DNA from: Rhodanobacter sp. DHG33
Lineage (GTDB): Bacteria; Pseudomonadota; Gammaproteobacteria; Xanthomonadales; Rhodanobacteraceae
Direction of reading: 5' to 3'
Length of the DNA stretch: 64,000 bases
Assembly: GCF_014843005.1 (NCBI RefSeq)
Contig: NZ_JACYXM010000004.1
Coordinates: 250,530-314,529, forward strand
Every line of letters begins with the position of its first letter. Position 1 is the first letter of the stretch. The notes beneath the pieces were generated by a model. It saw only the letters and a list, made by a program, of their open reading frames with translations, was not told the origin of the DNA and searched no databases. This document shows, one piece after another, positions 10,790-24,263 of the stretch. A program made the position numbers and the translations under genes.

Positions 10790-11683
10790 TCAGGCCAGCA
10801 AGCTCTGCGCGAACTCGCGCACGTAGTCGAGGAAACGCGTCTGCACGCCGTTCAACGGACTGTCCGGCCGGTAGACGGCGCGCAGGGTGACGTCGAGCTG
10901 CAGTTTCAGCGGACGCGTCTGCAACGGCTCCTTGCTGCAGCGCGCGGTGAAGGGGTCCACCAGCGCCAGTCCGCCGCCACGCGCGACCAGCGAGCAGGCG
11001 AGCTGGTAGGTCTGCACCCAGACGTGCGCACGCGGCGCGGGTTCGACCTCGGCGAGATGCCCGTGCAGCATGTTGCCCATCGCGTCCTGCACCGTGATGC
11101 CGATCATCGGCTGGCCGGCCAGCGCGCTGATCGGCAGCGGCTTCGCGAGGTCGCGCTCCGGCCACCAGCCCGGCGGGGCGATCACCATGATGCTGCCGTC
11201 GCACAGCGATTGCTGCAGCAGCCCGTGGCGGCTCATGTCCTGCAAGGTGAGGCCGATGTCGCTTTCGCGCAGCATCAGCGATTCGCACATCGCCGCCGAA
11301 TGCTGGGTATAGAGCTCGATGCTGGTGTCGGGGTAGACCTTGCCCAGCCGCGCGATCGCGTCGGGCACCAGGGTCTGCGCCAGGGTGGGCGTGCAGGTCA
11401 CCCGCAGCGGATGGCTCTCAGGGCGGGCGATGTTGGTCGAGAGACGCTGCAGGTCGTACATCTCCTGCATGATGCGGTCGATGTGGTGGCGCATCAGCAG
11501 CGCCTGCTGGGTGGGCTGCAGGCGCCCGCGCACGCGACTGAACAGGGGAAAGCCCAGATGGTTTTCGGCCTGCTGCAACGCCTTGCTCGCGGCAGGCTGC
11601 GAGATGTTCAGAAGGTTCGCCGCGCCGGTCAGGCTGCCGGTGCTCAATACGGCATGGAACAACTCGATGTAGCGCAATCGCAT
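10790..11683 (-). CDS. LysR-type regulator, probable regulator of dgcN-gltS (DgcR-like)
   Basis: A 297-residue LysR regulator. The winged HTH spans residues 1-60 (GSLTGAANLLNISQPAASKALQ), followed by a linker helix and a substrate-binding domain (about 90-295, starting LRVTCTPTLAQTLVPDAI). It is divergent from dgcN; the 217-bp gap holds a 15-bp LysR box. Published work on D-glutamate catabolism in marine bacteria describes a LysR activator (DgcR) next to dgcN. By position and box this protein probably has that role and may also control the receptor and ggt promoters, which share the site. The ligand is inferred, not shown. Confidence 0.9.
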   Translation of the reverse strand: MRLRYIELFHAVLSTGSLTGAANLLNISQPAASKALQQAENHLGFPLFSRVRGRLQPTQQALLMRHHIDRIMQEMYDLQRLSTNIARPESHPLRVTCTPTLAQTLVPDAIARLGKVYPDTSIELYTQHSAAMCESLMLRESDIGLTLQDMSRHGLLQQSLCDGSIMVIAPPGWWPERDLAKPLPISALAGQPMIGITVQDAMGNMLHGHLAEVEPAPRAHVWVQTYQLACSLVARGGGLALVDPFTARCSKEPLQTRPLKLQLDVTLRAVYRPDSPLNGVQTRFLDYVREFAQSLLA

Positions 11684-11784: not shown

Positions 11785-11850
11785 ACAACCGACGGTTATG
11801 CCATCTGACCGTCTTTTCATTGGCGGCCCGCGCCGGCCGCTGACTATGCT
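11785..11850 (+). promoter_or_regulatory. Shared LysR-type promoter, copy 1 (dgcN)
   Basis: Three elements are visible: a palindrome ACAACCGACGGTTAT (11785-11799, T-N11-A type), CTTTTCATTGG (11813-11823) and CTATGCT (11844-11850) as a -10. Gaps are 13 and 20 bases. The same words with identical gaps occur at 17153-17218 and 22352-22417. TTGGCG inside the second element could serve as a -35 with a 19-base spacer. The predicted start of transcription is near 11857, 44 bases before dgcN. Confidence 0.8.
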
Positions 11851-11900
11851 CGCCGCACCGCACGAAGCGGAATCCACCCAACCCTGGAGCCAGTGTCCAC

Positions 11901-12941
11901 ATGTCGAACCAAGGCGCAGAAACCGCAGTCCGCTGGGGCCCGCCGTACCTGCTGTACCTGGGCAGTGCCGTCGACGACCTGTCGATCAAGACCGCGCGCG
12001 GCCTGGCGTTCTGGCGGACCGAGCATTGCCTCGGCCAGCACCGCCGCCTTGATTGCTCGGTGACGCTGAACCTGCCCGACCTCGGCTTCGTCCAGGCCAA
12101 GGCCATGGGCGCCGACACCATGGTGATCGGCGCGGCGAACGCGGGCGGCGTGATGGGCCCGGAGATCGTCGCCGATGCCGTCGCCGCGCTGGACGCCGGG
12201 CTCAACGTGGTCTCCGGCCTGCACCACAAGCTGCGCGACAACGCCGACATCGTGGCCGCCGCGCGCCGCAACGGGCGTGCCCTGTTCGATGCGCGCGCAC
12301 CCGGTCCCAACATTGCGGTAGGCAACGGCAAGCCGCGTGCCGGCCGGCGCCTGCTCACCGTGGGCACGGACTGCTCGGTCGGCAAGATGTACACCACGCT
12401 GGCGCTGGAGCGCGCGCTGCGCGCACGCGGCCAGGCTGCGGATTTCCGCGCTACCGGGCAAACCGGCATCCTGATCGCAGGCGCAGGCATCCCGGTGGAT
12501 GCGGTGGTGGCGGATTTCATCTCCGGCGCCGCCGAAGCGATCTCGCCCGCGCGCGACGACAACGGCTGGGACCTGATCGAAGGCCAGGGCTCGCTGTTCC
12601 ATCCGTCCTTCTCCGGCGTATCGCTGGGCCTGCTGCACGGTTCGCAACCCGATGCCCTGGTGCTCTGCCACGAGCCGACACGGCAGCACATGCGCGGGCT
12701 GCCGCATTACCCGCTCCCGGATCTGGTGGCCTGCATGGAAGCCAACCTGGTCGCCGCGCGGTTGACCAACCCTGCGGTGCGTCCCGTCGGCATCGCGCTG
12801 AACACGTCGAAGATGCCGTCGCACGAGGCGCAGGCGGCGTGCGAACGGGTCAGCACGCTGTTCGGGCTGCCGTGCCAGGATCCGGTCACCATGGGCGTCG
12901 AAGCGATCGTGGACAACCTCGTCGCATGCTTCCCGGGTTGA
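11901..12941 (+). CDS. dgcN: D-glutamate N-acetyltransferase DgcN-like (DUF1611)
   Basis: A 346-residue DUF1611 protein. Its C-terminal half is a P-loop domain: LTVGTDCSVGKMYTT (Walker A-like, about 154-168), FRATGQTGILIAG, and DLIEGQGSLFHPSFSGVSLGLLHGSQPD. The N-terminal part is a small Rossmann-like domain. DUF1611 members were shown in marine bacteria to N-acetylate D-glutamate, the first step of a D-Glu catabolic route completed by DgcA. No dgcA is present here; the next gene is a glutamate symporter. It follows the LysR-box promoter. The alternative is a role in another N-acyl amino-acid route. Confidence 0.8.
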   Translation: MSNQGAETAVRWGPPYLLYLGSAVDDLSIKTARGLAFWRTEHCLGQHRRLDCSVTLNLPDLGFVQAKAMGADTMVIGAANAGGVMGPEIVADAVAALDAGLNVVSGLHHKLRDNADIVAAARRNGRALFDARAPGPNIAVGNGKPRAGRRLLTVGTDCSVGKMYTTLALERALRARGQAADFRATGQTGILIAGAGIPVDAVVADFISGAAEAISPARDDNGWDLIEGQGSLFHPSFSGVSLGLLHGSQPDALVLCHEPTRQHMRGLPHYPLPDLVACMEANLVAARLTNPAVRPVGIALNTSKMPSHEAQAACERVSTLFGLPCQDPVTMGVEAIVDNLVACFPG

Positions 12942-12998
12942 ACATCCGGCATAGTGGCCGCTTGCCGGCATGAGCGCCGCCGCCCGGAGCGACTGCAC

Positions 12999-14204
12999 GT
13001 GTTGATGCTCGACTCGGTCCAGACCCTGGCCTGCGGCGGCCTGTTCCTGCTGGTCGGCTACATGGTCCGGCGGCGCGTGCCGCTGCTGATGCGTTTCAGC
13101 ATCCCCGCCCCGGTGATCGGCGGCCTGCTGGTGGCGCTGTTCATGCTGGCCTGCCGCCACTGGGGCGTCACGCCGCTGCGCTTCGACACGTCGTGGCAGC
13201 AGCCGCTGATGATCGCGTTCTTCACCGGCATCGGCTTCAACGCCAGCGCGACCCTGCTCAAGATCGGCGGCCGCCAGATCCTGCTGTTCCTCGCCCTGGC
13301 CAGCGTGCTGGCGATCGCGCAGAACTTCCTGGGCATCGCCATGGCCAAGGCCTTCGGCCTGCCGCCGCTGTTCGGCGTGATCACCGGCTCGGTCACGCTC
13401 GCGGGCGGCCCCGCCACCGGCATGGCTTTCGCGCCGCTGTTCGAGAAAGTGGGCGTGCACGGCGCGCAGAGCGTGGCGCTGGCCAACGCGATGGCCGGTA
13501 TCGTGCTCGGCTCCATTTTCGGCTCGCCGATCGCGGCGATGCTGATCGAGCGCTTTCACCTGCGCACCGCCGGCGCAACCGGAGAGGTCAGCACGGAGGC
13601 GCCTGCGGCGGCCGTGTCGACGGAACCGGAGCGCACCGCAGATCCCGCCTACGCGGGACTCAAGACCTTGGTGTTCATGCTGCTGGCGATGGGCATCGGC
13701 GCATGGATCAGCGGCGGCCTGAGCCGGCTCGGCGTGACCTTGCCGAGCTACATCGGCGCGATGCTGGTGGGCGCGGTGATCCGCAACATCGACGACGCCT
13801 GGGGCTGGTTCGGATTGTCGACGCGCGGCATGGAGCTGATCGGCAACACCGCGCTGTCGCTGTTCCTCGTCGTGGCGCTGATGAACCTGCACCTGTGGGA
13901 CCTGGCCGGACTGGCGCTGCCGCTGCTGGCGAACCTGGCGGTGCAGTCGGTCCTGGTGCTGGCGTTCTGCTGCTGGCCGCTGCTGCAGCTGATGGGGCGC
14001 GACTACGACGCCGCGGTGATGGCCAGCGGGTTCACCGGTTTCATGCTGGGGACTACGGCGAATGCGGTGGCTTGCATGAGTGCGCTCACGGAGCGCTATG
14101 GAGCGGCGCCGCGGGCGTTTCTGGTGGCGCCGGTGGTGGGGGCGTTCCTGATCGATTTCACCAATGCGATCATCATTACGGGGTTCGTCAACGGGTGGCA
14201 TTGA
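12999..14204 (+). CDS. gltS: Sodium/glutamate symporter GltS
   Basis: A 401-residue ESS-family transporter with about ten to twelve membrane segments. Marks of GltS are RFSIPAPVIGGLLVAL near residue 30, FFTGIGFNAS, TGSVTLAGGPATGMAFAP (first reentrant loop) and ASGFTGFMLGTTANAVACM (second loop). GltS imports L- and D-glutamate with sodium. GTG at 12999 is preferred because a GGAG lies nine bases upstream; ATG 13005 is also possible. It starts 57 bases after dgcN and is probably co-transcribed, which suits D-glutamate uptake followed by N-acetylation. Confidence 0.93.
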   Translation: MLMLDSVQTLACGGLFLLVGYMVRRRVPLLMRFSIPAPVIGGLLVALFMLACRHWGVTPLRFDTSWQQPLMIAFFTGIGFNASATLLKIGGRQILLFLALASVLAIAQNFLGIAMAKAFGLPPLFGVITGSVTLAGGPATGMAFAPLFEKVGVHGAQSVALANAMAGIVLGSIFGSPIAAMLIERFHLRTAGATGEVSTEAPAAAVSTEPERTADPAYAGLKTLVFMLLAMGIGAWISGGLSRLGVTLPSYIGAMLVGAVIRNIDDAWGWFGLSTRGMELIGNTALSLFLVVALMNLHLWDLAGLALPLLANLAVQSVLVLAFCCWPLLQLMGRDYDAAVMASGFTGFMLGTTANAVACMSALTERYGAAPRAFLVAPVVGAFLIDFTNAIIITGFVNGWH

Positions 14205-14321
14205 GGGGCGGATTTTGGGTTTTGCGCCTTGGCGCTTGAGGCTTCGAGCTTCGAGCTCCATGTCCCGAGCTCTGAATTCCACGCTTCGAGCTTCGATAGC
14301 GGAATCCGCTGCCCCTAATTC

Positions 14322-14395
14322 GCAAGCGACAGAGCGGTTTCGGTCGCCTGCCGGCGCCCGAGTTACTTCTCTTTGCTGGCCCAAAGAGAAGTAAC
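14322..14395. repeat. Left member of an inverted dispersed repeat pair
   Basis: Positions 14322-14374 are close to the reverse complement of 15057-15110 (shared words: GACAGAGCGGTTTCG, AAAGAGAAGTA, CTCGGGC). The inner end forms its own hairpin (14362-14395: GTTACTTCTCTTT / AAAGAGAAGTAAC). With the right copy at 15035-15110 it brackets about 640 bp of repeat-rich DNA. The whole 14205-15179 interval has no credible gene on either strand. Confidence 0.75.
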
Positions 14396-14558
14396 CCAGA
14401 GAAATGGCCTTATGTAATCCGCCGGAACTACAAGCGGGTGGTGTCGAGGAAGTTGGAACTACGCGCGGCGACACGTCCTGCACAGCGGCCACGCCTCGCC
14501 GTATCTGGGAACTGAGGGAAACATCTGGGAACTGAGGGCAAGACCCTAGGGCGCTTCG

Positions 14559-14600
14559 CTCTGCATGTCTTGCTCTGCATGTCTTGCTCTGCATGTCTTG
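14559..14600. repeat. Tandem repeat, 14-base unit x 3
   Basis: CTCTGCATGTCTTG is repeated three times without a mismatch. Just before it, ATCTGGGAACTGAGGG occurs twice in tandem (about 14503-14540). No gene covers these units. Confidence 0.9.
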
Positions 14601-14602
14601 CT

Positions 14603-14690
14603 CGTCATTCCGGCGCAGGCCGGAATCTAGTGGCCGTGATGCTCGAACAATCGTGGTCGCTACTGGATCCCGGCCTGCGCCGGGATGACG
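14603..14690. repeat. Inverted repeat of the CCGGCGCAGGCCGG class
   Basis: Arms 14603-14627 and 14666-14690 are reverse complements apart from two bases, centred on CCGGCGCAGGCCGG. Such paired words are common dispersed intergenic repeats in GC-rich proteobacteria; nothing here suggests a gene-specific role. Confidence 0.75.
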
Positions 14691-14733
14691 AGCAGAGACG
14701 TTAGTACCTCGCCCCGCTTTAGCTTGGCTCTGC

Positions 14734-14810
14734 TCTCTGCTCTCTGCTCTCTGCTCTCTGCTCTCTGCTCTCTGCTTTAGCTTGGCTCTGGTTTGGTTTG
14801 GTTTGGTTTG
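14734..14810. repeat. Simple-sequence tract: (TCTCTGC)x6, then (GTTTG)x4
   Basis: A heptamer TCTCTGC is repeated six times perfectly at 14734-14775. A near-copy of the preceding GCTTTAGCTTGGCTCTG follows, then GTTTG four times at 14791-14810. Perfect short tandem arrays are prone to slippage; no coding frame or promoter is recognisable across them. Confidence 0.9.
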
Positions 14811-15034
14811 ATTCTGCTCTGGCCGTGGCTTCTGCGCGCTGGGAGCGCGCTGCTCTTCCGGGGCCCCTATGCGGCGGTGAGGCGGGGACGATCAGGCCGC
14901 GCAGCGGGCGAGTCCAGGGATGGACTCGCCTTTTCGACCGGGCAGGAAGCCCGGCCGAAAAGCCCGGCCCCGCCTCACGGACTCGCAGGGCAGGATGCCC
15001 GGAGAGCGCCGCATCGGGGTGCCCTTTTCTCTTG

Positions 15035-15110
15035 GCTACTTCTCTTTTGGGCACGCAAAAGAGAAGTAGCTCGGGCCGCGGCAGCGGCACGAAACCGCTC
15101 TGTCACTTGC
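15035..15110. repeat. Right member of the inverted dispersed repeat pair
   Basis: Contains the hairpin GCTACTTCTCTTTT / AAAAGAGAAGTAGC (15035-15070), then the reverse complement of the left copy (CTCGGGC...CGAAACCGCTCTGTC). It lies downstream of the M61 peptidase stop (15180, minus strand) and might help end its transcript. Confidence 0.75.
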
Positions 15111-15179
15111 GAAAACCGCAACACTCAAAGAGCCCCCTCTCCCACAAGCAAGAGGAAGAGGGAAATAAAAACGGCTACC

Positions 15180-17069
15180 TCAGTGCTTCGCCGCCAATAT
15201 CTCGCTCAAATAATCTGGCGTCCCCGCAACCCGCACCAAATGCGGATACTTCAACCCACCAAAGTAATCCACCGCATACGTCCGACTGACCCCATCGATC
15301 TGCGCCCGGATCTGGATCGGCTGCTTCTCCTTCTGCGCCCGCACGATGGCGTCGCGCAGCACGCGCGGGCTGTACGCATGTCCGTCGACCGCCTGCAGCG
15401 TCATCTCCGGCGCCAGCCCGGCTTTGAACGCCGGCCCCTGCCACAGCACGTCCATGATGCGGCCGTCGTGCCTGATGAACAGGCCCACCGAGAACGTCTC
15501 GTCGACGCCCGACGGTCCCAGTTCCTCGGGGCCGACGTTCTCGACGGCGTCCTGGTAGCGCGAAGGCGTATCGGTGTAGACCAGCTTCCAGCCGCTCTGC
15601 TCGATGCCCGACAGCAACGGTACCTGGTCGCCCACGCCATCCAGCCAGCCGTGCAGGAACTTCGCCCAGTCCCAGGGCTGCACCGCGTTCAGTCCCGCAA
15701 CGACGTCGTCGAAGCTGTAGGTCCGGGTGACGTAGCTGCCATCGTCCTTGCCGAAGAAGCGCTGGGCGAAATCGTCCAACGTGTACTTGTCGTGGCTGAG
15801 CGCGCGGATTTTCGTGTCCACGGTCAGCCACAGCAGCTGGCCTTCACGGTAGAAATCGGTGGTGCGGCGCCAGTTCACCCATGCGGGATCCCCGCCGTAC
15901 ACGAGTTGCGCGGCCCGGGTAGTGTCCGACAGCGGCCTCCATTCGCGGCCGGGACGGTGCGCGAACGCGGCCGCGCGGTAAGCCACCGCGTCGCGCCAGT
16001 CCTGCGCCGACCACAGGCCGCTGCGCGCGGTCAGCATGTCGCCAAGGTAGACCGTGAGACCCTCGTACACCCACAACCCGTCACCGATCTGGGGCTGCTC
16101 GAAATCGGGCTGCCACAGGCCTTCCGGGCGCATGAATTTCCCGTTCCACGAATGCGTGTACTCGTGCGGCAGCAGCGAACCGTCGAGCAGAAAGTGTCCG
16201 GGATCGGCGAACATGTGCGAACCGCCGCGCGCGCGGTCGTCGCTGGACTGGTGGTGCTCCAGTCCGCCGACCGAGGTGTAATCGCTCAGCGTCAGCAGGA
16301 AGTGGTAGTTCGTGTAGTGGTGCGAATGGAACAGGTCCTGCGCCTGCACGACGAGGTTACGGTAGCCCTCCAGCTGTTCGGGCTTGATCTGCAGCGCGGC
16401 TTCGCTGTCGCCCACCAGGTCGAGCCAGCGGTGCACGCTGGAGTTCGCCGGAGTGACGTCGATCTGCCGGAAATGCTTGCCGGCGATCACCGGCGCGTCG
16501 ACCAGCGTGTTGAACGGCACGGGCTTGAAGCGGATGCGACCGCCGTCGCGCGCCTCGGTTTCCAACGCCGTTCCGTAGCCCCAGTCCGCCGGCATCTCCA
16601 GCGTGGGCCGGAACAGCTGGTCCTTGGTCGGCTCGCCGGCGCGATACAGCGCCACGTGGTCCCAGGTGAGGTCCATCAGGTTTGGCGTGATCCGGTCGGT
16701 GTCCGGAAACTGGAAGCTGATATCGATGCTGTCCACCCCGGCCGGCACCTCCAGGTGGAAGGTGAACATGTCCACGGGATCGCGCTGCCACGCGATGCGC
16801 TTGCCGCCCGCGCTGATCTCCAGCCCCATCATTTCGCCGATCGGTCCGTCGGGCGCATGGTCGCCGGGGATGTACTTCGGGTAGTACAGCGTGAGCTTGC
16901 CCGGCGCAACGGGCATCGTCTCGTGCACGTAAAGCACTTTCTGCGCCGGGTTGGGCAGGCTCACCGTCAACGCGACGGCGTCGGATGGTGCATTGGTGTC
17001 GGCGTGCGCTACGCAGGCTGCGGATGCGGCGAACGCGACTGCGCCCACCAGTGATGGCCATCGTTTCAT
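15180..17069 (-). CDS. M61 family metallopeptidase (glycyl aminopeptidase-like) with PDZ domain
   Basis: A 629-residue exported zinc peptidase. Residues 1-23 are a signal peptide (ending CVAHA). The catalytic domain holds HEYTHSWNGK (His302, Glu303, His306) and YEGLTVYLG with Glu336 as the third zinc ligand. A PDZ-like domain lies at about 510-610 (GLFIRHDGRIMDVLWQGPAFKAGL). M61 enzymes remove N-terminal glycine or alanine from peptides. It is divergent from the TonB-dependent receptor, and the LysR box of copy 2 lies 84 bp upstream of its ATG. A role in periplasmic peptide trimming in that pathway is inferred from position. Confidence 0.9.
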   Translation of the reverse strand: MKRWPSLVGAVAFAASAACVAHADTNAPSDAVALTVSLPNPAQKVLYVHETMPVAPGKLTLYYPKYIPGDHAPDGPIGEMMGLEISAGGKRIAWQRDPVDMFTFHLEVPAGVDSIDISFQFPDTDRITPNLMDLTWDHVALYRAGEPTKDQLFRPTLEMPADWGYGTALETEARDGGRIRFKPVPFNTLVDAPVIAGKHFRQIDVTPANSSVHRWLDLVGDSEAALQIKPEQLEGYRNLVVQAQDLFHSHHYTNYHFLLTLSDYTSVGGLEHHQSSDDRARGGSHMFADPGHFLLDGSLLPHEYTHSWNGKFMRPEGLWQPDFEQPQIGDGLWVYEGLTVYLGDMLTARSGLWSAQDWRDAVAYRAAAFAHRPGREWRPLSDTTRAAQLVYGGDPAWVNWRRTTDFYREGQLLWLTVDTKIRALSHDKYTLDDFAQRFFGKDDGSYVTRTYSFDDVVAGLNAVQPWDWAKFLHGWLDGVGDQVPLLSGIEQSGWKLVYTDTPSRYQDAVENVGPEELGPSGVDETFSVGLFIRHDGRIMDVLWQGPAFKAGLAPEMTLQAVDGHAYSPRVLRDAIVRAQKEKQPIQIRAQIDGVSRTYAVDYFGGLKYPHLVRVAGTPDYLSEILAAKH

Positions 17070-17152
17070 GCGTTTCCCCGTGCCTTCGATTGGATCGAGA
17101 GACCACGAATGAAGCGCACGATGGGAAATTTTTCAAGCGCCAAACGACACGC

Positions 17153-17218
17153 ATAACCCGCAGTTATGGCGGTCCCAAGACTTTTCATTGGCGGCTGTCG
17201 CGCGGCGCGGACTACGCT
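17153..17218 (+). promoter_or_regulatory. Shared LysR-type promoter, copy 2 (TonB-dependent receptor)
   Basis: ATAACCCGCAGTTAT (17153-17167) is a perfect ATAAC-N5-GTTAT inverted repeat; CTTTTCATTGG is at 17181-17191 and CTACGCT at 17212-17218. Gaps of 13 and 20 bases match copies 1 and 3 exactly. Predicted transcription starts near 17225, leaving a leader of about 247 bases before the receptor ATG. That leader includes a strong palindrome GACGGCGCGC-AC-GCGCGCCGTC (17358-17379). The box could also serve the divergent M61 gene. Confidence 0.8.
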
Positions 17219-17471
17219 CGATCAGCACTGTGGGCATGGAGGATGTCCGCTCGATGCGCATCGCTGCCAGACGCATGGCGAACCCAGGGGGAACGCCAGC
17301 GTCGTGACATGCCGCGATGCCGCCACGTTCCGGCATCTCCACGCCCGCATTCGACCCGACGGCGCGCACGCGCGCCGTCCATCCTGTTGGCTTGCGGACC
17401 GTCCGGACGATGGCCACCCGCTTGCGAACCCAATCGCGGTACCCGGCGTTTCACCACAGTGGAGTGAATAC

Positions 17472-20400
17472 ATGAAGGGCAAATCCCAGCGCGCGATGCA
17501 CCGTAGCAACGTCCTCAAGCGCAAGGCATTGCCCCTTGCCATTGGCCTGCTGGCCTGCGGCGCCGCAGGCACGGCCTGGGCGCAGGCGACCAACGGCACC
17601 ATCTACGGCACGGTGCCCGTAGCGCCCGGCGAAACGGTGCAGATCACCAGCGGCAGCGGTTTCAACCGCAGCATCCCGGTGAGCGAGTCCGGCAAGTATT
17701 CGATCACCCTGCCGGTAGGCAGCTATACGGTGTCGCTGCTGCAAAACGGCCAGGTCGTGCAGACCCGCACCGACGTCACGCCGGTGGCGGCGGGCGCGGT
17801 GGCGGTCGATTTCGCCTCGGGCGCCGGCGGCCCCGCCAACGCGATCAACCTCAACTCGATCCACGTCACGGCCAACACCTCGCCGCCGATCGATGTGACC
17901 ACCACCAACCAGGTCACCACGATCACCTCCAAGCAGCTGCAGCAGCTGCCGCTGGCGCGCACCGCCGAAGACATCGCCATGCTGGCGCCGGGCGTCAACA
18001 TGGGTTCGCCCGAGCTCGGCAGCGGCCCGCTCGGCACGCCGATGAACGTGTTCGGCGGCGCCTCCACCGCGGAGAACGCGTACTACGTCGACGGCATGAA
18101 CACCACCGAGGCACTCAACAACTCGGGCGGCATCGCCCTGCCCTACGGTGCCATCGACCAGCAGCAGACCTACATCAGCGGTTACGACGCCCGCTATGGC
18201 CGTTCCATCGGCGGCGTGATCAACCAGATCGGCAAGAGCGGCACCAACGACTGGCATTTCGGCGTGCGCGCCCTGTGGCAGCCGGCCAGCATGCGCGCCG
18301 CGCCGGACAACCTCTACTACGCCAACCCCTTGATGGCCGGCGATCCGGTGTATTCGCCCGGCGACCTGGCCGTATACCGCAAGGGCAACACCGCGGACGA
18401 GAAGATCTACGACGCCTACATCAGCGGCCCGCTGATCAAGGACAAGCTGTTCTTCTTCCTGAGCGCCGAAAAGGACGACAGCCAGTACCACGACACGCAG
18501 GAATTCGGCAACGGCCCGGCCTACTCGCTCAGCCAGCACGACCCGAAGTTCTACGGCAAGTTGAACTGGAACATCAACGACAGCAATGTGCTGACGCTGA
18601 GCTACCTGCAGAACGCGCACCAGACGCAGCCCACCTATTACGACTTCAACTACGACACGCTGCAGAACGGCGCCTTCAGCAGCCTCGGCCAGTACAACAA
18701 GACCGTGTTCAAGATGGCGGTGTTGAACTACACCTCCTACATCACCGACGACCTCACGCTGAACGCCACCCTGGGCAAGATGCACGGCCAGTACTATTCG
18801 GTGCAGCCGGCCTATCCGGGCTACAACCCCGAACTGCCGCATATCGCCAGCGCGTCGCTGCAGGATCCGCAGTTCTCGCCGCCTGGCGGCATCATCAACG
18901 CCCAGTCCAATTCGACACTCAGCGACCCGAACCACCACGAGTCGATCACCAACTACCGCTTCAGCCTCGACTGGAAGTTGGGCAGCCATGATTTCCAGGT
19001 GGGCATCGACAATATCAATTCCTACGATATCGACGATGGCTCGCTGGACACCGGCCCAGGCTACCAGTGGATGTACGGCGCGACCGGCCCCGGTGTCCCG
19101 GTGTTCGGCAACGACCCGAACATCCCGCCCTATGTCGCCCCCTCGACCCAGTGCTACCAGGGCACCTGCTACTACGTGCAGAAGCACACCGACATCAGCG
19201 CCGCCACCGTGCGCGTGGTACAGCGTGCGCAGTACGTCATGGACAACTGGCAGGTCACCCCGAACCTGCTGCTTAATCTCGGTATACGCAACGACCAGTT
19301 CGTGAACTACGACGCCTCCGGCATACCCTACATCCGCGAGACCAAGCCGCAGTGGTCGCCGCGCCTGGGCTTCAGCTGGGACGTGCATGGGGATGCTTCG
19401 CTGAAGGTGTTCGGCAACGCCGGTCGCTACTACCTCTCGCTGCCCACCAATGTGGCCTTGTCCATCGCCGCCCCGGTGACGAATGCCGGCATCTACGGCA
19501 CCTATACCGGCATCGACCCGGTGACCGGCATACCGACCGGCTTCACGCCGCTGCCGCAAAGTCCCTCGACAGGCGTATCGATCGACAACGAATACGGGCA
19601 GGCGAAAGATCCGCGCCTTTCCGCCGCCAGCAACGCCAGGGCCGAATTCTCCGACAACTACGTGCTGGGCCTGCAGCAGCAATTCAACATGCTGGGCACG
19701 AACTGGGTGTTCAGTGCCACCGGCACCTACCAGCGCATGAGCCGCATCATCGACGACTTCGACGACGAGCAGATCGAATGCGCCGCCGGCCTCGCGCAGG
19801 GCTATTCGTGGATGACGCCGCAGAATTGCTCCAACTACGCGCAGAGCCTGGTGCTGGTGAACCCCGGCGTGACCAACCATATCTGGATGCTGTCGCCCAG
19901 CGGAGCCATCGTGCCGGTGACGCTTACCGGTGCCGATCAGAATTTCCCGAAGGGACCGGAGCGCCGCTATTACTCGCTGGATCTTTCGCTGGAACACGCT
20001 TGGGACGGCAAGTGGTTCGCCAAGTTCGACTACGTGTTCTCGCGCAGCTGGGGCAACACCGAAGGCCCGGTGAGCACCTATTCGCAGCAGGGCGGCTCCT
20101 ACGAATCCATCACTACCGCCTGGGACTTCCCGGAGCGCATGCAGTATTCGGGCGGCATACTTCCCAACGACCGCAAGCACCAGTTCAAGCTGTTCGGCTC
20201 CTATGCGCTCACGCCCGAATGGACGGTCGGCGCCAACCTATACGTCACCTCGGGCACGCCGATCATGTGCCGCGGCGGTTACGGTCCGGACCAGCTGGCC
20301 CTGCACGGCTCGCACACCTACTACTGGTGCGGCGGCGTACCCGTGCCCCCCGGCTCCCTCGGCTTCACTCCGTGGGTGCATGACGTCGACCTCAGCCTGG

Positions 20401-20591
20401 ACTACAAGCCGAAGTGGGCGCAGCAGAAGCTCGACTTCAACCTCACCGTGTTCAACATACTCAACGACCAGACCACGATCTTCTACAACGATTTCTACGG
20501 CACCACGAGTTCGCCCAACCCGGATTACGGACGCATCCAGGACACGTACGCGCCGCGCAGCGTCCGCTTCTCCGTTGCCTACGACTTTTGA
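17472..20591 (+). CDS. TonB-dependent receptor, Oar-like, with N-terminal carboxypeptidase-regulatory-like domain
   Basis: A 1039-residue outer-membrane receptor. A signal peptide (to about residue 38, ending GTAWA) is followed by a beta-sandwich (about 40-120, TNGTIYGTVPVAPGETVQI), then a plug domain (about 130-260: QLPLARTAEDIAMLAPGVN, YYVDGMNTT, ARYGRSIGGVINQIGKSGTN). A long 22-strand barrel ends in SVRFSVAYDF with the terminal Phe of outer-membrane proteins. GGAGTG upstream fixes the ATG at 17472. Such receptors import peptides or other polymers; the shared promoter with dgcN-gltS and ggt points to a glutamate-containing substrate. A TPR-sulfotransferase follows, separated by a terminator. 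Confidence 0.93.
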   Translation: MKGKSQRAMHRSNVLKRKALPLAIGLLACGAAGTAWAQATNGTIYGTVPVAPGETVQITSGSGFNRSIPVSESGKYSITLPVGSYTVSLLQNGQVVQTRTDVTPVAAGAVAVDFASGAGGPANAINLNSIHVTANTSPPIDVTTTNQVTTITSKQLQQLPLARTAEDIAMLAPGVNMGSPELGSGPLGTPMNVFGGASTAENAYYVDGMNTTEALNNSGGIALPYGAIDQQQTYISGYDARYGRSIGGVINQIGKSGTNDWHFGVRALWQPASMRAAPDNLYYANPLMAGDPVYSPGDLAVYRKGNTADEKIYDAYISGPLIKDKLFFFLSAEKDDSQYHDTQEFGNGPAYSLSQHDPKFYGKLNWNINDSNVLTLSYLQNAHQTQPTYYDFNYDTLQNGAFSSLGQYNKTVFKMAVLNYTSYITDDLTLNATLGKMHGQYYSVQPAYPGYNPELPHIASASLQDPQFSPPGGIINAQSNSTLSDPNHHESITNYRFSLDWKLGSHDFQVGIDNINSYDIDDGSLDTGPGYQWMYGATGPGVPVFGNDPNIPPYVAPSTQCYQGTCYYVQKHTDISAATVRVVQRAQYVMDNWQVTPNLLLNLGIRNDQFVNYDASGIPYIRETKPQWSPRLGFSWDVHGDASLKVFGNAGRYYLSLPTNVALSIAAPVTNAGIYGTYTGIDPVTGIPTGFTPLPQSPSTGVSIDNEYGQAKDPRLSAASNARAEFSDNYVLGLQQQFNMLGTNWVFSATGTYQRMSRIIDDFDDEQIECAAGLAQGYSWMTPQNCSNYAQSLVLVNPGVTNHIWMLSPSGAIVPVTLTGADQNFPKGPERRYYSLDLSLEHAWDGKWFAKFDYVFSRSWGNTEGPVSTYSQQGGSYESITTAWDFPERMQYSGGILPNDRKHQFKLFGSYALTPEWTVGANLYVTSGTPIMCRGGYGPDQLALHGSHTYYWCGGVPVPPGSLGFTPWVHDVDLSLDYKPKWAQQKLDFNLTVFNILNDQTTIFYNDFYGTTSSPNPDYGRIQDTYAPRSVRFSVAYDF

Positions 20592-20611
20592 GCCACGCAT
20601 GGCTTCCCCAT

Positions 20612-20639
20612 ACGCCGGGCGCATGCCCGGCGTTTTTTT
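20612..20639 (+). terminator. Intrinsic terminator after the TonB-dependent receptor
   Basis: Stem ACGCCGGGC / GCCCGGCGT (20612-20633) with a GCAT loop runs into seven T's (to 20639), 20 bases past the receptor stop. Confidence 0.93.
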
Positions 20640-20702
20640 AATGCCGGAAATCGACGTCGGAGTTTTTTTGCAGCCCGCGGACGACTTGTGTAGCGTGACG
20701 GC

Positions 20703-22298
20703 ATGAGCAGCGAAACCACACATTCCTCGTCATTGTCGCCCGCGGCCGCCCAGTTGCTGGAAAGGGCGCGCAGCGAATGGCGGCAACGGCAATTCGAGGC
20801 CGCCGAGCGATCGGTCCAGCAAGTGCTGTCGCTCGCGCCCGGCAACCCCGATGCGCTGCGCATGCTCGGCGTCATGGCCCAGCACCGCGGCGACCAGGCC
20901 CGGGCCGTCGACTGCTTCCGGCGCGTGCTGCCCGTGTGGCCCCATGACTCCGACCTGCACGTGGGACTGGGTATCGCGCTGCACGAACGTGGCGAGATCG
21001 AAGAAGCCATGACCCACCTGCGACGCGGCTGCGAATTGGATCCCGCCTCCGCATCGGCCTGGTTCAACCTGGGCGAAGCGCTGTGGCGGCGGGCGCGCAC
21101 CGATGAGGCCATCGCGGCACTGCAACGCACGCTGGAACTCGCCCCCGCGCACCTCCCCTCCCGCCTATCGCTGGCCAAGGCGCAGGCCAGCCAGGGCCAG
21201 ATCGATGCCGCGGTGACCGGTTTCCGCGAAGTGCTCCGGCGCGATCCGGGCAATGCCGAAGCATGGTTCGGATTGTCCAACCTCAATACCGTGCGCTTCG
21301 ACGCCACCGACACGACCCACCTGCGGCAGGCGTTGGCGCGCGGCGGCCAAACGCCCCGCCACCGCGAACTGCTGGGCTTCTCGCTGGCCAAGGCGCTAGA
21401 AGACCAGGGCGATTACACGCAGGCCTTCGACCTGTTCCGGCAAGCCAACGCCTCGCGCCGCCAGCGCGTGCAGTGGAACGCAACAGGCGAGCGGCAGCGC
21501 GTGGAAGCGATCCAGCGCATCTATGCGCACGACACACCGGCGCCGCTGGATCCCGCACTGGGTCGCGAAGTCATCTTCATCGTCAGCGTGCCGCGCTCCG
21601 GCTCCACCCTGGTCGAGCAGATCCTGGCCTCGCATCCCGAGGTCGAGGGCGCGAACGAGATCAAGGACCTGTCGCAGGTGATCGACGCGGAAACGCATCG
21701 CCGCCATTCCGCGTTCCCGCTGTGGACGCCGCACGCGAGTGCGGCGGACTGGCAACGCCTGGGCAAGGAATACCTCGCGCGCACCGCGCCATGGCGCAAG
21801 GCCAAGCCACGCTTCACCGACAAGAGCCTGGTGAACTGGTACCTGGTGGGCGCCGCGCTGGCGATGCTGCCGTCGGCGCGCGTGGTAGTGGTGCGGCGCG
21901 ACCCGCTGGAAACCTGCCTCGCCTGCTTCCGCCAGCTCTTCACCGAGCAGAGCAGCTTCACCTGCGATCTCGACGAGATGGCCGACTACTGCATCGACTT
22001 CATCCGGCTGACCCGCTTCTGGCTGGAGCGCTATCCGGACCGGGTGTTCGACCTCGAATACGAAACCCTGACCGCCGAGCCCGAGCCCACCACCCGACGC
22101 CTGCTGGATTTCTGCGGCCTGCCGTTCGATCCGGCCTGCCTGGAGTTCCACAAGACCTCGCGCGCCGTGCTGAGCTCGCCCAGCGCGGCGCAGGTACGAC
22201 AGCCCATGCGCCGCGACACCGCACGCAGCGCACGCTACGGCGACCGACTGGATGGCCTGCGCCAACGCCTGCGCGATGCCGGCGTGCTGAAGGACTGA
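20703..22298 (+). CDS. TPR-containing sulfotransferase family protein
   Basis: A 531-residue protein in two parts. Residues 15-240 are a run of tetratricopeptide repeats (AWFNLGEALWRRARTDEAIAAL, for example). Residues 285-520 are a sulfotransferase domain with the 5'-PSB loop VSVPRSGSTLVEQIL and the 3'-PB region ARVVVVRRDPLETCLACF. Such proteins use PAPS in related enzymes; acceptors are unknown. In many Xanthomonadales and Caulobacter-like genomes they sit beside TonB-dependent receptors, as here. The gene lies after the receptor's terminator and probably has its own promoter. Confidence 0.9.
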   Translation: MSSETTHSSSLSPAAAQLLERARSEWRQRQFEAAERSVQQVLSLAPGNPDALRMLGVMAQHRGDQARAVDCFRRVLPVWPHDSDLHVGLGIALHERGEIEEAMTHLRRGCELDPASASAWFNLGEALWRRARTDEAIAALQRTLELAPAHLPSRLSLAKAQASQGQIDAAVTGFREVLRRDPGNAEAWFGLSNLNTVRFDATDTTHLRQALARGGQTPRHRELLGFSLAKALEDQGDYTQAFDLFRQANASRRQRVQWNATGERQRVEAIQRIYAHDTPAPLDPALGREVIFIVSVPRSGSTLVEQILASHPEVEGANEIKDLSQVIDAETHRRHSAFPLWTPHASAADWQRLGKEYLARTAPWRKAKPRFTDKSLVNWYLVGAALAMLPSARVVVVRRDPLETCLACFRQLFTEQSSFTCDLDEMADYCIDFIRLTRFWLERYPDRVFDLEYETLTAEPEPTTRRLLDFCGLPFDPACLEFHKTSRAVLSSPSAAQVRQPMRRDTARSARYGDRLDGLRQRLRDAGVLKD

Positions 22299-22351
22299 AC
22301 GCGGCAAGCCGCATCGCGTGACATGAAATCCATCGTCGAAGCGGCAGGCCC

Positions 22352-22417
22352 ACAACCGCCGGTTATGCCCCTCGCGCGTCTTTTCATTGGAGCGGCCCTC
22401 GCGCGCATGGCTATGCT
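22352..22417 (+). promoter_or_regulatory. Shared LysR-type promoter, copy 3 (ggt)
   Basis: ACAACCGCCGGTTAT (22352-22366), CTTTTCATTGG (22380-22390) and CTATGCT (22411-22417), again with gaps of 13 and 20 bases. Transcription should start near 22424, 22 bases before the ggt ATG, with GAGGAG (22431-22436) as its Shine-Dalgarno. Confidence 0.8.
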
Positions 22418-22445: not shown

Positions 22446-24263
22446 ATGTCCGACAGCAATACACCGCAACCGCAGTGTGGGTGGACGCATGCGAAGCGCG
22501 CGCCATCGGGATGGGGACGTTACGCCCTGGCAACGGTGATTGCCGCAAGTTGCCTGTCCTTGCACGCTCGCGAGGCCAGCCCGCCGCGAACCGCTGCGAT
22601 AGCCAACGCGCCCGCCGCCACCCAGGCCGCGCTGAACCAGGCGAAGCCGGTCATCGCGAAACACGGCATGGTGGTCAGCGCGCAGCACCTCGCCTCCATG
22701 GTCGGGCTGGACATCCTCAAGCGCGGCGGCAACGCCATCGACGCCGCGGTGGCGGTCGGCTACGCCGAGGCGGTGGTGCATCCCTGCTGCGGCAACATCG
22801 GCGGTGGCGGCTTCATGACCATCCATTTCAAGGACGGCCGCGACGTCTTCCTCGACTTCCGCGAAAAGGCCCCGCTGAAAGCCACGCCGACCATGTTCCA
22901 GGACGCCAAGGGCAACGTGGTCCCGGGGCTCAGCACCGACAGCTACCTCGGCGTGGGCGTGCCCGGCACGGTGATGGGGTTGGACGAGGCGCTGAAGAAA
23001 TACGGCACGATGTCGCTCAAGCAGGTCATCGCGCCGGCGATCAAGCTGGCCAGCGAAGGCTACGTGCTCGAGCAGGGCGACGTGGATTTCATGGACGGCA
23101 GCGCGGAGGACTTCGCCAAGTACCCGAACGTGGCGGCCATCTTCCTCGACCACGGCAAACCTTTCGTGGCCGGCCAGCGCCTGGTGCAGAAACAGTTGGC
23201 ACAGACGCTGGAGCAGATCGCCCAGGGCGGCACCGACGCGTTCTACAAGGGGCCGATCGCCCACAAGCTGGTCGCGGCAAGCGAGGCCAACCACGGCATC
23301 CTTTCGATGAAGGATTTCGCCGACTACACCGTGCAGTGGGACAAGCCGGTGCAATGCGACTACCGCGGCTACACGATCGTCTCCGCACCGCCGCCCAGCT
23401 CCGGCGGCGTCACCGTCTGCATGATCCTCAAGCTGGTCGAACCCTATGCGCTAGGCCAGTGGGGCTACGGATCGGCGAAGAGCCTGCACTACCTGGTGGA
23501 AGCCGAGCGCCGCGCCTTCGCCGACCGCAACACCTACCTGGGCGATCCGGCCTTCGTGCACAACCCGATCGACCGGCTGCTTTCCCCCGATCACCTGGCC
23601 CAGGTCAGGGCCAGCATCCAGCCCGACAAGGCCACGCCCTCGTCCGACATCAAGGGCAGCCTGGGCCAGCCGGAAGGCATGCACACCACGCATTACTCGG
23701 TGATCGACAAGGACGGCAATGCCGTCGCGGTGACCTACACCATCAACTACCTGTTCGGCATCCGGCAGATCGCTGGCGACACCGGCTTCTTCCTCAACGA
23801 CGAGATGGACGACCTCACCGGCAAGCCCGGCGTGGCCAACGGCGCCGGCCTGGTGCAAGGCGTGGTCAACCAGGTCGAGCCTGGCAAGCGCCCACTGAGT
23901 TCGATGACGCCCACCATCGTGCTGCGCGACGGCAAGCCGTTCCTGCTGACCGGCAGCCCCGGCAGCGCCACCATCATCTCGACCACGATGGAGAGCATCG
24001 TCAACGTGATCGACTTCGGCATGAACGTGCAGCAGGCGATCGATGCACCGCGCATGCACCACCAGTGGTATCCCGATGTCGTTTACATCGAGCCCGGGCT
24101 GGTCACGCCGCAGACGCAGAAAACCTTGGAGGCTATGGGCTACACGTTCGAGACACGCCAGGCGATCGGCGACGACGAGGCGATCCTGATCGATCCCCGC
24201 ACCGGCCTGCGCGAAGGCGCCAGCGATCCCAGGACACCGGCGGGTCTGGCTGCAGGCTACTGA
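22446..24263 (+). CDS. ggt: Gamma-glutamyltransferase (gamma-glutamyltranspeptidase)
   Basis: A 605-residue periplasmic Ntn-hydrolase precursor. An N-terminal hydrophobic segment (about 25-42) serves for export. The large subunit carries GGNAIDAAVAVGYAEAVVHP and GGGGFMTIHF; self-cleavage should occur before Thr414 in GMHTTHYSVIDKDGNAVAVT. PLSSMTPTIVLRDGKPFLLTGSPGS is the conserved small-subunit substrate region. GGT hydrolyses gamma-glutamyl bonds in glutathione, gamma-glutamyl peptides and poly-gamma-glutamate, releasing L- or D-glutamate. ATG 22446 has a GAGGAG site; the longer open frame from 22323 would start upstream of the promoter. The shared promoter ties it to dgcN-gltS. Confidence 0.95.
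   Translation: MSDSNTPQPQCGWTHAKRAPSGWGRYALATVIAASCLSLHAREASPPRTAAIANAPAATQAALNQAKPVIAKHGMVVSAQHLASMVGLDILKRGGNAIDAAVAVGYAEAVVHPCCGNIGGGGFMTIHFKDGRDVFLDFREKAPLKATPTMFQDAKGNVVPGLSTDSYLGVGVPGTVMGLDEALKKYGTMSLKQVIAPAIKLASEGYVLEQGDVDFMDGSAEDFAKYPNVAAIFLDHGKPFVAGQRLVQKQLAQTLEQIAQGGTDAFYKGPIAHKLVAASEANHGILSMKDFADYTVQWDKPVQCDYRGYTIVSAPPPSSGGVTVCMILKLVEPYALGQWGYGSAKSLHYLVEAERRAFADRNTYLGDPAFVHNPIDRLLSPDHLAQVRASIQPDKATPSSDIKGSLGQPEGMHTTHYSVIDKDGNAVAVTYTINYLFGIRQIAGDTGFFLNDEMDDLTGKPGVANGAGLVQGVVNQVEPGKRPLSSMTPTIVLRDGKPFLLTGSPGSATIISTTMESIVNVIDFGMNVQQAIDAPRMHHQWYPDVVYIEPGLVTPQTQKTLEAMGYTFETRQAIGDDEAILIDPRTGLREGASDPRTPAGLAAGY

Follow-up and report, generated by a model that had tools for sequence, protein, structure and literature searches.

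Rigidly spaced promoter elements point to a probable LysR-type regulon for the use of D-glutamate and gamma-glutamyl compounds in Rhodanobacter and its relatives

In a 64-kb stretch of DNA from Rhodanobacter sp. DHG33 (contig NZ_JACYXM010000004.1; hereafter the window), we identified three candidate promoters of a single design, one of them adjoining a gene for a LysR-type transcriptional regulator (positions 10790 to 11683, minus strand, with its ATG at 11683). The encoded protein carries an N-terminal HTH_1 domain (PF00126, 64.1 bits against a cut-off of 26.6) and a C-terminal substrate-binding domain (PF03466, 102.7 bits against 28). Its best match among LysR-family models is PRK11013, the NCBIfam model of Escherichia coli LysR, the activator of lysA. 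However, the score of 149.1 bits is far below the cut-off of 288, and by this test the regulator is therefore not an orthologue of that protein, whose effector is diaminopimelate. A search of solved structures found three LysR-family chains at an E-value of 1e-10, and a profile search found none at 1e-20.

All three candidate promoters lie on the plus strand and match the pattern AYAAC-N5-GTTAT-N13-CTTTTCATTGG without mismatch, at 11785–11823, 17153–17191 and 22352–22390. Twenty bases past CTTTTCATTGG they continue with CTATGCT, CTACGCT and CTATGCT, respectively, each of which contains a -10-like hexamer. Site 1 (11785 to 11850) thus consists of a palindrome at 11785–11799, the 11-mer CTTTTCATTGG at 11813–11823 and the hexamer TATGCT at 11845–11850. 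The corresponding elements are at 17153–17167, 17181–17191 and 17213–17218 (TACGCT) in site 2 (17153 to 17218), and at 22352–22366, 22380–22390 and 22412–22417 (TATGCT) in site 3 (22352 to 22417). The window holds no further match at three or fewer mismatches, and 100 dinucleotide shuffles of it gave a mean of 0.00. An earlier note on this DNA had described three sites of identical spacing, with ACAAC as the left half in two copies, differing bases between the elements and one site in the intergenic region of the LysR gene. We found the spacing to be exact at all three positions, the left half to be ACAAC twice and ATAAC once, and site 1 to lie between the LysR gene and the divergent gene dgcN.

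Near-identical cores, three of them within 10.6 kb, are what the recent duplication of a block, or the spread of a mobile repeat, would leave behind. However, alignment of the sites refutes such an origin, because only the named elements match, as the earlier note had also argued; spacers and flanks differ. The genes behind the sites are non-homologous, and across species each type of target has its own spacer variant. We therefore give duplication a negligible chance.

Site 1 precedes dgcN (11901 to 12941, plus strand), a member of the D-glutamate N-acetyltransferase family (NF041892, 509.3 bits, cut-off 480). The next gene, gltS (12954 to 14204, plus strand), encodes a sodium/glutamate symporter (TIGR00210, 328 bits, cut-off 311) and, because a gap of only 12 bases separates the two, is probably co-transcribed with dgcN. 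Site 2 precedes a gene for a TonB-dependent outer-membrane receptor (17448 to 20591, plus strand; PF25183 (OMP_b-brl_4) and PF07715 (Plug), both over cut-off), for which a search of solved structures gave nothing at an E-value of 0.01. Site 3 precedes ggt, which encodes gamma-glutamyltransferase (22446 to 24263, plus strand; TIGR00066, 583 bits, cut-off 358). These are the genes that the earlier note had named. If transcription starts seven bases past the hexamer, the predicted starts are near 11857, 17225 and 22424, and the palindrome would be centred at about -65, upstream of the -35 region in every aligned site. A start near 17225 would give the receptor transcript a leader of about 220 bases (17225–17448), longer than the leaders of dgcN or ggt.

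The genome as a whole (3,764,703 bases in 43 contigs) contains CTTTTCATTGG five times and AYAAC-N5-GTTAT at five places, one of them readable on both strands. The two elements occur together at the 13-base gap at four places, all of them exact, so that four of five palindrome places have the 11-mer and four of five CTTTTCATTGG places have the palindrome. Three of these are the sites in the window. The fourth, at C22:618709 on another contig, has TACTCT as its -10-like hexamer, spaced as in the other sites, and the first base of its palindrome is 99 bases from the start of an amidohydrolase gene (602 amino acids; Amidohydro_3, 309 bits). By eye, the N-terminus of this amidohydrolase resembles a signal peptide. 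A sequence-only model built from 34 sites, these four included, scores sites 1, 3 and 2 and the C22 site at 69.4, 59.2, 58.3 and 49.1 bits, while the next match in the genome reaches 18.8. The shuffles, the four full matches genome-wide and this gap in model score rule out a chance origin. The earlier note had asked whether the three-part pattern would turn up at random or before unrelated genes; with four full sites in 3.76 Mb, and with the targets in relatives described below, it does neither. That note had also drawn the regulon across 10 kb, which holds for the sites in the window but understates the extent, given the exact fourth site on C22. The two leftover single elements were set aside: the fifth CTTTTCATTGG (C40:33548) has no palindrome and lies beside an inverted repeat, GGCCCGCC/GGCGGGCC, that looks like a terminator by eye, and the fifth palindrome (C39:4673) has no 11-mer.

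The same geometry is found in related genomes. In stretches totalling 693,522 bases and taken from 27 genomes, each of the 80 distinct copies of TTTTCATTGG has a palindrome (two or fewer mismatches) at exactly 13 bases. Conversely, of 86 matches to AYAAC-N5-GYTATG, 75 have the 11-mer after them, and the remaining 11 come from reading these palindromes on the other strand. Because these stretches were chosen for holding sites, the scan tests spacing, not frequency. The hexamer lies outside the search pattern. Among 83 sites, the best TATGCT-like hexamer, taken with no score threshold, begins at a distance of 21 bases from the 11-mer in 70 and of 20 bases in 10, and its T, A and final T are present in 40, 40 and 41 of 41 aligned sites. 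The palindrome region holds 27.8 bits of information, the 11-mer region 26.6 and the surroundings of the -10 box 14.1.

The role of the 11-mer is less straightforward. In the earlier note it had been read as a possible second half-site overlapping a -35 box. The latter part agrees with the positions, since TTGG as a -35 element with a 19-base spacer falls at the 11-mer; a spacer of this length also fits a MerR-type promoter. The half-site part is less well supported, as no 8-mer within the 11-mer resembles a half of the palindrome; when the half-site was scanned along the promoter, the true halves scored 11.9 and 13.7, and the only other match was a weak one over the -10 box (0.86). The -10-like TATGC (within 11845–11850, 17213–17218 and 22412–22417) is similar to TTATGC, the palindrome's right half, and may be an extra contact for the regulator. 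As the 11-mer is stricter than the palindrome and no copy of its half-site, it could be a separate contact, made by the regulator or by another protein. The second case would require two proteins, with the LysR-type protein on the palindrome and either a second activator or a special sigma factor, using CTTTTCATTGG as its -35 element, on the other part. The information content of TTTTCATTGG, nearly that of the palindrome which it does not resemble, and the strict pairing of all 80 copies would suit such an arrangement. However, a rigid gap suits a single protein assembly, co-occurrence with the LysR orthologue alone is already complete (39 of 39 genomes, described below), and no further conserved regulator gene turned up next to the sites, although no systematic search for one was made. 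We consider two proteins distinctly unlikely.

The genes behind the sites form a coherent set in relatives. In 27 genomes, 77 of 83 distinct sites lie ahead of dgcN, ggt, TonB-receptor, amidohydrolase or serine-hydrolase genes, despite differing gene order. The first gene on the same strand encodes a TonB receptor like that of the window at 25 sites, DgcN at 21, a second receptor type at 11, Ggt at 10, a distant Ggt (36–38% identical to that of the window) at five, an amidohydrolase at four, an S12 hydrolase at one and some other product at six. Four of the 11 assignments to the second receptor type are weak (34–36% identity over 211–235 amino acids); two of these four were scanned, and both are TonB receptors. 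The six other genes include one that is an amidohydrolase on scanning (L129), two of similar length that were left unscanned (L123 and L125), and genes for a sodium:solute symporter, an amino-acid permease and a transglutaminase-like protein. In rearranged loci (G023, G108 and G156) the sites stay with their genes.

In 13 of the 24 genomes whose dgcN stretch was examined (G005, G022, G023, G061, G078, G108, G116, G148, G156, G183, L018, L021 and L022), dgcA follows directly 3' of dgcN on the same strand, and DgcA exceeds its cut-off in G005, G022 and G023. In some relatives, genes for an S12 hydrolase and a 3-hydroxy-D-aspartate aldolase (the latter 742 bits in L019, cut-off 690) lie 3' of dgcN. 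A second, more distant dgcN-like gene was seen at L107 (G022), at G027:C10:28582 and at L139:12646–13590 (G156), and the two of these that came up in the family search score below the DgcN cut-off.

The presence of the motif closely follows that of the regulator gene. Among 61 relatives, 11 carry the motif at three or fewer mismatches and 10 an orthologue of the regulator (67–100% identity); all 10 of the latter have the motif, as does only one of the other 51 (G045). Two order-level relatives have regulator homologues of only 34–36% identity. The match in G045, an order-level relative without an orthologue, has two mismatches and lies opposite an open frame of 1272 amino acids, and we take it as chance. 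The 22 orthologues that were aligned share 67–96% identity. Within 197 genomes of the family, an orthologue (E-value 1e-60) is present in 39 and the motif in 55 at three or fewer mismatches or 45 at two or fewer, while a reversed control pattern is found in one. At two or fewer mismatches, the motif is present in all 39 genomes with an orthologue and in six of the 158 without (Fisher p 3e-35, a value that overstates the evidence, since relatives do not count as independent events). Within genera, the distribution of the pair is patchy. Genomes with both and with neither number 6 and 9, 2 and 4, 7 and 9, 8 and 10, and 6 and 10 in five mixed genera without exception, and 9 and 5 in a sixth with two exceptions (G157 and G166). 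In addition, the site lies between the LysR gene and dgcN in all 11 orthologous named loci, while a twelfth locus, with a homologue of 25% identity, has no site.

The six family genomes that have the motif at two or fewer mismatches and no orthologue are G166, G157 and four members of genus g15 (G073, G086, G100 and G124). G166 has a regulator fragment, 69% identical, at the edge of a contig. The g15 genomes carry a look-alike, ATAAC-N5-GTTAT...TTTCATTGG, which at the two loci checked (L120:10000–10038 and L121:9960–9998) lies between a different LysR gene (318 amino acids) and a sigma-factor-like gene. We had considered these look-alikes as matches within coding sequence, a view dropped since the L120 and L121 copies are intergenic.

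Adjacency and co-occurrence are correlations, and clusters are inherited together, so the sites could in principle answer to some other co-inherited regulator, with the LysR gene merely adjoining one of them. However, sites also accompany their genes when these are distant or on another contig (G000 C22, G023 C12, G108 and G156), where the sole constant is a LysR orthologue in the same genome, and the look-alike sites of the two genomes checked are intergenic and next to another LysR gene. Control by a different regulator therefore appears very improbable.

The sites, their rigid geometry, the gene set and the co-occurrence with the regulator gene were computed directly. The co-occurrence and the coherent gene set in relatives support the LysR regulon claimed in the earlier note, and we put at about 0.85 the probability that the three sites and the C22 site are operator-promoters of one regulon under the LysR-type regulator encoded at 10790–11683 on the minus strand. 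It very probably binds these sites. Several observations tell against this assignment. At three or fewer mismatches, 16 of the 158 genomes without an orthologue have the motif, and G157 has sites while no orthologue was found in its 95% complete draft. In the family-wide comparison an orthologue could be missed, since at most 12 candidates were scored per genome. The conservation of the motif's own letters is partly imposed, because the motif served to find the sites. The lack of half-site likeness in the 11-mer belongs here, as does the T-N11-A signature, whose right-hand A is present in 41 of 41 aligned sites but whose left-hand T is present in only 12 (C in 28, A in one); the strict T is lost in the 28 because the left half is mostly ACAAC. 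With regard to the pathway, the best DgcA score in this genome is 166.9 bits (cut-off 400), too low for a recognisable DgcA, tblastn found none in the window, and the S12 and D-amino-acid transaminase assignments in relatives, the latter for a gene near other sites (236–237 bits, cut-off 277), are below the NCBIfam cut-offs.

Promoters of the BenM/CatM kind have a 15-bp T-N11-A palindrome upstream and an activation site near -35. The promoters described here share with them an imperfect 15-bp palindrome in a divergent LysR promoter, centred at about -65 from the predicted start, as well as several target operons and a second conserved element near -35. They differ in that the left half is mostly ACAAC and that the second element does not resemble a half-site and is conserved with unusual strictness. 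According to a published account (PMC11739112), LysR tetramers occupy a recognition site of high affinity and an activation site that binds more weakly, and shift upon effector binding. The palindrome fits a recognition site of this type, and the 11-mer sits where the activation site would be expected and may also carry the -35 element.

The regulator would most likely sit on the 15-bp palindrome near -65 with another DNA-binding pair on or beside TTTTCATTGG next to the -35 region, and its inducer-bound form would aid RNA polymerase at a TAnnnT -10 box 20 to 21 bases further on. We judge it likely, with less assurance than for binding, that the regulator activates rather than represses. Members of the LysR family can also act as repressors, chiefly of their own genes, and the half-site-like TATGC overlapping the -10 box would be compatible with a protein that mainly represses until its substrate releases it. 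However, the palindrome is centred near -65, upstream of the -35 region, which is the usual position for activation in this family, and the -35 element agrees with TTGACA in TTG only. Repression as the main mode thus seems unlikely.

The most likely role of the regulon is the scavenging of D-glutamate and of gamma-glutamyl compounds or D-amino-acid peptides, substrates suggested by the gene set. Substrates would be imported through the TonB-dependent receptors and cleaved, as gamma-glutamyl or D-amino-acid compounds, by gamma-glutamyltransferase and the amidohydrolase (in relatives also by S12 serine hydrolases). GltS would bring in glutamate, and DgcN, joined by DgcA in roughly half the relatives, would channel D-glutamate into metabolism. 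The inducer might be D-glutamate or a gamma-glutamyl or D-peptide product, for which we see slightly less than even odds. More speculatively, the system could be dedicated to gamma-D-glutamyl peptides, such as cell-wall fragments, with a product-sensing regulator and a two-part operator in which TTTTCATTGG is a second sequence-specific contact unlike the palindrome.

A DgcN-DgcA pathway for D-glutamate was reportedly described in marine Proteobacteria and halophilic archaea by Yu and others (Yu et al. 2023). The present system shares with it a DgcN above the equivalog cut-off and, in relatives, the dgcN-dgcA order given above; it differs in having no recognisable DgcA in this genome and in placing the genes together with those for TonB receptors, Ggt and peptide hydrolases behind a single type of operator. 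A published account names dgcN as the key gene in an irreversible pathway that racemises acidic D-amino acids (PMC12363236). Searches of an open-access library, which misses most subscription papers, gave no earlier description of the regulon. The kind of system is known, and what is added is the fourth site, a family-wide regulon and a pathway hypothesis. For Rhodanobacter, Dyella, Rudaea and relatives, in which the use of D-glutamate and gamma-glutamyl compounds is otherwise inferred from single genes only, this provides a named regulator together with an operator sequence and a list of targets that can be tested. It would also link particular TonB receptors, proteins whose substrates are seldom known, to the metabolism of D-amino acids, and the unusually strict second element makes these promoters useful for studying how LysR-family proteins contact DNA and polymerase.

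Two further genes in the window adjoin the receptor gene. Directly 3' of it, here and in mapped relatives, is a TPR-repeat sulfotransferase-like gene (20703 to 22298, plus strand; PF13469, 139 bits, and TPR models), whose product is a probable partner of the receptor. Divergent from the receptor is a gene for an M61 peptidase (15180 to 17069, minus strand; PF05299 and PF17899 over cut-off), which shares the intergenic region of site 2, in several relatives too, and may be co-regulated. Between gltS and the M61 gene (about 14719–14850), a translated frame with short REQRAES-like units suggests a small tandem repeat.

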